From NCBI RefSeq assembly GCF_900156415.1, contig NZ_FTNM01000001.1, forward strand, positions 558,001 to 622,000: a DNA stretch of 64,000 nt, given 5' to 3'. Positions 57,840 to 60,087 of the stretch are shown here, piece after piece. Origin of the DNA: Pontibacter lucknowensis. GTDB taxonomy: Bacteria; Bacteroidota; Bacteroidia; Cytophagales; Hymenobacteraceae. The position numbers were made by a program, and so were the translations under genes. A model generated the notes under the pieces. It was not told where the DNA came from. It searched no databases and was given only the letters and a program-made list of their open reading frames with translations. The stretch's first letter is position 1, and every line of letters begins with the position of its first letter.

Positions 57840-57847
57840 TACCTTTG
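57840..57847 (+). promoter_or_regulatory. Candidate -7 element, methyltransferase gene
   Basis: TACCTTTG ends only nine bases before the ATG at 57857. If functional, transcription would start within a few bases of the start codon. No -33 TTG at the usual spacing was found. Confidence 0.4.
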
Positions 57848-57856
57848 CAGTGTACC

Positions 57857-59053
57857 ATGAAGCACTACACTCCCGAAGAGAAAGATTATATGCGGCAGCA
57901 CCAGCATCGCAACCCTGCCGAGCTGATGCTGCAGGCAAGCCGCTACCCACAGTTACCAGTGGCTGAACTGGTAAAGCAGATCCAGGCACGGCAAAAAGCC
58001 ATTGACAAACTGCCGACCTGGGTAGCCTATCCGGATGTGGTATTTCCAACGGCCGTATCAGTAGAGCAGACTTCCTCAGAGGCAACTGCTGCCTTCAAAG
58101 CTTCGCTGATAAAAGGCAAGCTGCTCGTCGACCTGACAGGCGGGTTCGGGGTAGACAGTTTCTTTTTCTCGAAGCAGATTAAACAGGTGGTGCATGTGGA
58201 GCAGAACAGCGAACTTTCAGAAATAGCCTCTTATAATTTCAAGCTGCTGGGCGCTACTAATATTGATGCTGTCAACTCCTCCGCAGAAGATTTTCTGCAG
58301 CAGTTTACTGGTAAAGCCGATGTGCTATACCTGGATCCGGCACGTCGTAGTGATAAACAAGAGAAGGTGCACCTGCTGCAAGACTGTGAACCGGATGTAC
58401 TGCAGTTGCTGCCGGCGCTGTTTGAAAAAGCAGATGCTGTGCTGCTCAAAACCTCCCCCATGCTTGATATTGAGCTGGCGCTTGAGCAACTGGGTTCAGT
58501 AGCCAGAGTATGGGTAATCGCACTGCACAACGAGTGCAAGGAAGTCCTATACCTGCTTCAGCCCGGTGCAAAGGCAAACCCCAGACGGTATGCGATCAAC
58601 CTGATGCCAGACGGTAGCATTCAAACGCTTACTTTCGATAAAGAGCAGGAAGAGCAAACGTCAGTCAGCTTCGCTGATCCAAAGGCCTATCTCTACGAGC
58701 CTAACTCCGCTATACTTAAATCAGGCGCCTACCGCAGTGTGGCCAGCCAGTTTGGCCTGCAGAAGCTGCATCCTAACAGTCACCTTTATACCTCTGATCA
58801 GCTTATACCTGATTTCCCGGGCCGGGCTTTTGCCTGCCAGGGCACGGGCCGATATAACAAAAAAGAAATCCTTGCCAGGCTCCCGCAGCGCAAAGCCAAC
58901 ATCACGGTGCGCAATTTTCCAGAGTCAGTGGCTGACATTCGCAAGAAGACAGGTATAAAAGAAGGAGGTGCAGAATACCTTTTCTTTACCACAGACATGC
59001 ACCAGAAGCCGCTTGTGATCTTTTGCCGGAAAGCAATCGCCCCTGCCCTATAA
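57857..59053 (+). CDS. THUMP-like class I methyltransferase
   Basis: A 398-residue protein. Residues about 20-85 are helical; a SAM-binding Rossmann fold follows (LVDLTGGFGVDSFFFSK as motif I, VLYLDPARR as motif IV); the C-terminal part has a PG_1098-type ferredoxin-like domain and a THUMP-like domain (ATVRN-like NITVRNFPESVADIRKKTGIKEGG). These domain names are from family memory. A nucleic-acid (probably RNA) methyltransferase is likely; the substrate is unknown. The start was set at 57857 (MKHYTPEEK); an in-frame TTG four codons upstream is possible but unlikely. Confidence 0.8.
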   Translation: MKHYTPEEKDYMRQHQHRNPAELMLQASRYPQLPVAELVKQIQARQKAIDKLPTWVAYPDVVFPTAVSVEQTSSEATAAFKASLIKGKLLVDLTGGFGVDSFFFSKQIKQVVHVEQNSELSEIASYNFKLLGATNIDAVNSSAEDFLQQFTGKADVLYLDPARRSDKQEKVHLLQDCEPDVLQLLPALFEKADAVLLKTSPMLDIELALEQLGSVARVWVIALHNECKEVLYLLQPGAKANPRRYAINLMPDGSIQTLTFDKEQEEQTSVSFADPKAYLYEPNSAILKSGAYRSVASQFGLQKLHPNSHLYTSDQLIPDFPGRAFACQGTGRYNKKEILARLPQRKANITVRNFPESVADIRKKTGIKEGGAEYLFFTTDMHQKPLVIFCRKAIAPAL

Positions 59054-59346: not shown

Positions 59347-59778
59347 ATGAAACGCAATAATGAAGAGAACCAAAATCAGAACAACAATCTGAATCAAAAC
59401 AGAAATAATAATCAGAATCAACCAAGAAATGAATCAGGTGAGTTTGAAAGCACTTCTCGCTCCCAAAGCAATCCAATGAACCAGAGCGGCCAGCGATCGC
59501 AGACCAGCAGCAGCAACCAGGGCCAAGGTTGGCACGGTGACTCGCAAGGTCATGCACAGGCCGGCCGACAGAGCCATAAAAATGACAGCTCATCGTCATC
59601 TATCAGCAACAGTTCATCTCAGGGTAGCCAGTCCCAGGCCAGAAGCAGCAACCAGTCACAAGGCAGTAGCAGCCAAAGCCAGGGAAAAGGCTGGCACGGA
59701 GACTCAGAGGGACACGCACAAGCAGGGCGTCAGAGTAACAAGGACAACAACTCAGGCTCCAGCAATAATAACTCCTAA
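59347..59778 (+). CDS. Disordered Ser/Gln/Asn-rich protein with two GWHGDS repeats
   Basis: A 143-residue, extremely hydrophilic protein without signal peptide or membrane segment. Asn/Gln/Ser make up most of it. The 16-residue motif GWHGDSxGHAQAGRQS occurs twice, at residues 61-76 (Gln at x) and 115-130 (Glu at x). The repeat has a glycine-histidine-alanine-glycine layout reminiscent of KGG/con-10 stress proteins, but the KGG signature itself is absent, so that link is tentative. ATG at 59347; the in-frame TTG at 59338 is unnecessary. A hairpin follows. Confidence 0.75.
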   Translation: MKRNNEENQNQNNNLNQNRNNNQNQPRNESGEFESTSRSQSNPMNQSGQRSQTSSSNQGQGWHGDSQGHAQAGRQSHKNDSSSSSISNSSSQGSQSQARSSNQSQGSSSQSQGKGWHGDSEGHAQAGRQSNKDNNSGSSNNNS

Positions 59779-59806
59779 TATAGTTTAGCTGAATATATTA
59801 CAGAAA

Positions 59807-59830
59807 AGCCCGTGGCAGATGCTGCGGGCT
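59807..59830 (+). terminator. Terminator after the Ser/Gln-rich gene
   Basis: AGCCCG (59807-59812) pairs with CGGGCT (59825-59830) with a possible short inner stem, followed by TCCCTATTT. It lies about 30 bases past the stop. Confidence 0.65.
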
Positions 59831-59913
59831 TCCCTATTTACATCAACTAGCGTTCTTGAACTTCGTAAACTTAGTATAAGACACGATTTTAAACGAACTG
59901 AAATTTTAAAGCT

Positions 59914-60087
59914 ATGAAAAACGAAAAAGAAAATAAGAACATGCCGAAAAATCAGCAGTCGGGCATGAATAAGCCTGGTAGCAAAAAGGACATAGGCAAC
60001 GACCTGCACAAGGATGCGGTAGGGAAAAAGGGCTCTAACAACCCGACGCCACAGGCCCGCACAGACAACGAGCAGAAAAAACACTAA
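59914..60087 (+). CDS. Small hydrophilic protein, 57 residues
   Basis: An open frame too short for routine lists: it begins MKNEKENKNMPKNQQSGMNK and ends TDNEQKKH. It is highly charged and polar, rich in Lys, Asn and Gly, without hydrophobic core, so probably disordered. The start context (AAAGCTATGAAA) is the same as that of the upstream gene (GAAAGCTATGAAA), and a hairpin terminator follows, which supports real expression. Function unknown. Confidence 0.6.
   Translation: MKNEKENKNMPKNQQSGMNKPGSKKDIGNDLHKDAVGKKGSNNPTPQARTDNEQKKH

Follow-up and report, generated by a model that had tools for sequence, protein, structure and literature searches.

What is the repeated peptide in the 143-residue open reading frame considered here (gene A, Table 1), and what could a protein consisting largely of filler around two copies of it be for? 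The initial annotation of the 64,000-nt stretch of DNA in which it lies (the window), from Pontibacter lucknowensis of the Bacteroidota family Hymenobacteraceae, had called the repeat novel-looking, had seen in it the layout of the KGG/con-10 stress repeats without the KGG itself, and had proposed a stress or desiccation protein. We address the two repeat copies, their relation to known repeats, their distribution and genomic context, and a promoter-like element upstream of the gene.

Table 1. Features of the gene A locus (window coordinates)
Feature	Position	Strand	Remarks
Upstream conserved gene, synteny anchor	57845..59053	+	Synteny
Gene A promoter-like element AAC-N16-CGTAAA	59267..59291	+	ECF-sigma-type; ends 55 bases before ATG
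Gene A, 143-aa protein with two WHGD...QSHKN repeats	59347..59778	+	Syntenic orthologues, AlphaFold2
Repeat copy 1, 22-residue register GQGWHGDSQGHAQAGRQSHKND	59521..59586	+	16-residue core GWHGDSQGHAQAGRQS at 59527-59574
Repeat copy 2, 22-residue register GKGWHGDSEGHAQAGRQSNKDN	59683..59748	+	16-residue core GWHGDSEGHAQAGRQS at 59689-59736
Gene C promoter-like element AAC-N16-CGTAAA	59845..59869	+	ECF-sigma-type
Gene C (P0002), 57-aa hydrophilic neighbour	59914..60087	+	Near gene A in 27/27 motif-bearing loci

Two constrained repeat copies in a probably disordered protein

The frame of gene A runs from ATG to TAA, as first stated, and the gene is present in a single copy in the source genome. 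Both coordinates and composition agree with the initial description of two 16-residue copies that differ in one residue and are set in Ser/Asn/Gln-rich filler (36 Ser, 26 Asn and 23 Gln among the 143 residues of the protein). The protein combines high Gly content (10.5%) with high hydrophilicity (GRAVY –2.04), the composition by which hydrophilins are recognized, the numerical limits being Gly over 6% and a hydrophilicity index over 1. AlphaFold2, given 23 aligned proteins, predicts no secondary structure (mean pLDDT 47.4), which is in line with intrinsic disorder but does not prove it; no related protein was found among solved structures. Escherichia coli YciG, a KGG repeat protein, is termed a hydrophilin (PMC5437024), and its relatives are described as lacking structure in solution and as protective under stress in Salmonella (PMC7161692), the mode of action of the KGG repeat being called uncharacterised in the latter paper. 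By analogy, gene A would encode a disordered, hydrophilin-like protein with a protective role under stress.

At the DNA level the copies differ in 12 bases, 11 of them third codon positions and one a first position, in agreement with the many third-position differences claimed initially. Among the 16 codons, ten carry silent changes and one a replacement (Q/E), out of 10.5 silent and 37.5 replacement sites between the copies. The comparison of synonymous and nonsynonymous change proposed at the outset, extended to 11 two-copy orthologues, yields pN/pS of 0.066 in motif columns (pS 0.58, 94% identity, no gaps) versus 0.188 in filler columns (67% identity counting gaps, 14% gaps), and W, H, D and the second H of the motif are invariant in the Pontibacter alignment. 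This pattern is not due to chance: the repeat is under purifying selection, as had been suspected, and the remainder is freely exchanged filler. Moreover, each copy retains its own signature in most of the 11 orthologues (...SQGHA.AGRQSHKND in copy 1 and ...SEGHAEAGRQSNKNN in copy 2, the latter not followed in two species, L010 and L012), so the duplication predates the two-copy clade and is not recent, in agreement with the initial argument.

Relation to the KGG repeat

The initial annotation was right that the tripeptide K-G-G is absent: both window copies read RQS, and in some members of the genus (L016, L025) copy 2 contains SQGG. The proteins con-10 and GsiB belong with the KGG repeat proteins (PF10685). 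The PF10685 profile does not match the gene A protein even at E 10, nor anything else in the source genome, and scans of this protein and its relatives against Pfam, NCBIfam and PHROGs assign the QSHKN unit to no named family; nor do the L047-type and L050 proteins match Pfam. When a profile of QSHKN units is compared with KGG units by hhalign, the two align in the expected register, at a probability of 5% and E 0.0079, both profiles being very shallow. The lack of Pfam matches and the weak profile comparison weaken the link to KGG.

The two types are joined by mosaic and intermediate proteins. One from the source's own family (L030) has GGSSEQHAEAGRQSHKN twice, side by side with a single GGSSEQHAEAGRKGGEASH, in addition to canonical units, and matches PF10685 as a whole at E 2.1e-13; its GRKGG unit alone scores 20.5 bits (the cut-off is 20.4), and its GRQSHKN unit has no match. 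These units share the whole of GGSSEQHAEAGR and read either QSHKN or KGGEASH from there on. QSHKN units and units above the PF10685 cut-off occur in one protein in L030, L074, L079, L081, L088 and L099, and L086 looks similarly mosaic by sight. WHGD-type heads with KGG tails are found in L046, L050, L104 and L106 (e.g., GRGWHGDSEGHAKAGRKGG in L050 and AWYGDSKGHAEAGRKGG in L104); of these, L104 exceeds the PF10685 cut-off, its other unit scoring best, and L106 stays below it at 15.7 bits. The interchange of the two units within one protein is a feature of these relatives and not of the window protein itself.

Given that mosaics and intermediates join the QSHKN and KGG types, the repeat does not constitute a new type. 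Judging from sequence, it is best read as a variant of the KGG repeat with QSHKN, or QSH(K/N), where KGG stands, and hence as belonging to a KGG superfamily taken in a wider sense; by score it is no PF10685 member. The likeness to KGG/con-10 seen in the initial annotation hence turns out to be more than a resemblance. The impression of novelty holds in that Pfam, NCBIfam and PHROGs have no annotation for the QSHKN unit, but not beyond this, as the unit grades into KGG and recurs in other phyla.

It is rather unlikely that WHGD...QSHKN is instead an independent motif that has converged on the KGG layout and co-occurs with it since both suit disordered stress proteins. The missing Pfam match and the non-significant profile comparison agree with such an origin, and short low-information repeats may converge easily; however, the L030 units that share GGSSEQHAEAGR and differ in their endings argue against it, as does the same QSHKN/KGG mixture in several proteins of different records. 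No paper on QSHKN-type repeat strings, and none joining at least three of Pontibacter, KGG, hydrophilin and desiccation, was found in the open-licence literature.

Distribution outside the genus

A lack of homologues in any genome had been named at the outset as an outcome that would speak against the motif; homologues exist both within Pontibacter and beyond it. The C-terminal half, (T/S)(P/H)EQH(A/V)xAG(R/Q)QSHKN, and close forms occur outside the genus in records labelled Massilia, Kaistia, Komagataeibacter, Agrobacterium and others, and the QSHKN form is also present in Pseudomonadota and in Patescibacteria-labelled records; some of the motif-bearing records are metagenome bins, whose taxon labels may be wrong. 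The distribution is patchy: matches are found in 4 of 395 sampled genomes of Bacteroidota (at E 0.01, source genome included), in 14 of 398 of Pseudomonadota, the phylum of Kaistia (at 1e-3, centre genome included), and in 7 of 239 from the phylum of the Roizmanbacteria record (centre genome included). Phage records give no match, and the 22-residue query found nothing in plasmids; the Kaistia relative used as a query retrieves 15 plasmid records, labelled "hypothetical protein" where annotated.

Two further forms were observed. In a Doudnabacteria record, a 31-aa ORF (L043, 2989-3081) contains almost nothing but the motif, and one protein in the Pseudomonadota sample (L089 and L097) has four GWFGDS(E/A)GHS(E/Q)A(A/S)(Q/R)RGW units, which may be another ending of the same repeat.

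The locus in Pontibacter

Orthologues were sought with a 21-residue query in 150 genomes of the family, 50 of them from the genus; matches reaching E 1e-3, which came from 27 genomes, were accepted as real, and those in the other 24 of the 51 genomes matching up to E 10, as chance. All 27 motif-bearing genomes of the 150 belong to the genus, making up 27 of its 50 genomes. In each of these loci gene A is flanked by the upstream anchor gene, which we take to be methyltransferase-like, and by the small downstream gene C. At one locus (L028) there is only a 35-residue frame with no start codon and a worn motif; the other printed gene A proteins of the genus have 66 to 171 residues and one or two motif copies.

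The equivalent locus was located in all 23 other genus genomes, where the stretch also includes gene C and the motif is absent or decayed, so the motif is dispensable. Many of these loci encode a related first protein with the C-terminal motif absent or eroded (L109, L121, L131). At motif-less loci of sister species a second protein, gene B, is found, reading, e.g., EFHGFASNPEKSFEAGKKG. Gene B is called in 13 of the 27 motif-bearing loci (in six of these as a fusion with gene C) and in 15 of the 23 others; none was found in the close relatives of the window, L002-L012. By sight it appears KGG-like, and the three gene B proteins scanned do not match PF10685. Between genes A and C, a hairpin AAGCCCGTGGCA...TGCTGCGGGCTT at 59806-59831 is largely kept in the 11 closest orthologues; it was not called by the terminator scan.

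A promoter-like element shared with other genes

AAC and CGT are hallmark boxes of ECF sigma factors (PMC8103513), and an AAC –35 box and a CGT –10 box at fixed spacing are found upstream of gene A. The exact AAC-N16-CGTAAA has only two matches in the window, before genes A and C. AAC-N16-CGTA(A/C)A precedes gene A by 46-74 bases in 26 of the 27 Pontibacter loci, with 0.0008 per gene expected in first-order Markov sequences. As these loci are kin, the stronger argument is the presence of the element before non-homologous genes of one genome. The looser AAC-N16-CGTA is found 30-90 bases before 3 of the 160 window ORFs of at least 50 aa, the third being, by its look, presumably a ribosomal protein gene.

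Several other genes have the element. Gene B in motif-less genomes is preceded by it with N16 in 12 of 15 cases and with N17 in two more. AAC-N16-CGTATA is present 51-57 bases upstream of a DUF892 gene (YciE/F-like) in 6/6 genus genomes; the outgroup DUF892 locus (L167) has only AAC-N17-CGTA, at a distance of 94 bases from a late Met. The Hsp20 gene of the MKPM/MKPA type is preceded by AAC-N16-CGTA(A/G)A in 6/6 cases and another Hsp20 paralogue in 0/8, these counts covering 14 of the 20 Hsp20 loci (L171-L184). Genome-wide, the exact AAC-N16-CGTAAA is not enriched (28 matches vs. 54 for the reversed control). Scans for sigma-70-type promoters and terminators near gene A gave chance-level matches only, and no paper linking CGTAAA, ECF and Bacteroidota was found in the open-licence literature.

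From these sites, gene A appears to be regulated through an ECF-type stress promoter, and the conserved element common to the DUF892 and Hsp20 genes lends indirect support to its being a stress protein.

The exact element was also observed 58 bases before a hydrophilic 276-aa ORF (C5:780003, L140), 84 bases before a lipoprotein-like 228-aa ORF (C6:173753, L145) and 71 bases upstream of a 330-aa Gly/Ser/Tyr-rich ORF (C10:219557, L156), the last one with two SWFGD(D/E)(D/E)AERRRRMD(D/E)M motifs, faintly like the GWFGD/GWHGD units. None of the three ORFs has a Pfam match.

Interpretation

We consider it fairly probable that gene A encodes a disordered, hydrophilin-like protein with variant KGG-superfamily repeats, which belongs to an ECF-driven stress regulon and has a protective role; as part of this joint reading, the two repeats are, with the same moderate confidence, its only strongly constrained parts. 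In response to envelope, oxidative or water stress, an ECF sigma factor would read the AAC-N16-CGTAAA elements and turn on genes A and C along with the YciE/F-like DUF892 gene and one Hsp20 gene. The gene A protein, being soluble, would then accumulate, its repeats acting as short sticky or water-binding segments with the filler as a spacer, and these might shield other macromolecules or modulate how they condense, as supposed for hydrophilins such as YciG.

A bolder version is offered tentatively, as a possibility with the odds against it: QSHKN would mark a second class within the KGG superfamily, parallel to KGG itself, with another partner or ligand specified by its final residues; WHGD...H...QSHK would be a minimal functional peptide that can stand alone; and Pontibacter would control it through an ECF-driven general stress regulon of Bacteroidota type, analogous to that of EcfG.

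The motif could also be a metal- or nucleic-acid-binding module, with its conserved Trp, Asp and two or three His, tethered by the filler. The invariance of W, H, D and the second H in Pontibacter and the Doudnabacteria ORF with little beyond the motif speak for such a module, yet GGTPEQHAEAGRQSHKND forms lack the W-H-G-D part and no fold is predicted; a module of this kind is improbable. It is scarcely credible that gene A is drifting almost neutrally, as a low-complexity locus that slowly decays and owes its conservation to recent ancestry only: the filler is fluid and part of the genus has lost the motif or has it in decayed form, but the motif keeps its low pN/pS at pS of 0.58 and the promoter element is retained in 26/27 loci.

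Under the preferred reading, a disordered protective protein with variant KGG-superfamily repeats, these proteins provide a natural series in which QSHK replaces KGG and the rest is kept, which may reveal the positions that matter and those that swap. The common ECF-type element defines a concrete candidate stress regulon in a Bacteroidota genus, comprising genes A and C, the DUF892 gene and one Hsp20 gene. Moreover, the gene A family suggests that a group of KGG-like stress proteins goes unrecognized in Pfam annotation at present.

Comparison with known systems

The stress locus yciGFE of enterobacteria is one point of comparison. Among 22 records outside the family sample, a DUF892 ferritin-like gene is found within 2 kb of the QSHKN gene in four, W01, G671, G879 and G545 (the last being an unclassified bin), and not in the other 18. 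In Pontibacter, gene A and the DUF892 gene have a similar promoter-like element; unlike in yciGFE, they lie on different contigs in 6/6 Pontibacter genomes, and do so in the source genome, and the promoter type is ECF-like, whereas RpoS control is reported for YciG (PMC7161692).

The general stress regulon of EcfG in Alphaproteobacteria offers another parallel. In Pseudomonadota, GGAAC-N16-(C/G)GTT is found 20-90 bases upstream of 5 of the 18 QSHKN loci tested (0.03 expected; the earlier scan covered 23 ORFs, 22 besides that of the window), the five loci being probably mutually non-independent, and the site is absent from the other 13. These sites fit the published EcfG motif of Sphingomonas, GGAAC-N17-20-GTT (PMC6599016). 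The Pontibacter element differs, being AAC-N16-CGTA(A/C/T/G)A.

With hydrophilins the gene A protein shares its Gly content, GRAVY and lack of a predicted fold, and it differs from them in the dominance of Asn/Gln/Ser filler. Finally, the KGG repeat of PF10685 (YciG and YmdF of E. coli) has a similar unit length, is Gly-rich and follows the same order, G-(W/F)...D-(S/P)-E...A-G-(R/K); it also shares with gene A the tandem or spaced copies, the small hydrophilic protein and the co-occurrence in mosaics, whereas gene A has QS(H/N) for KGG, a WHGD head and long Asn/Gln/Ser filler.
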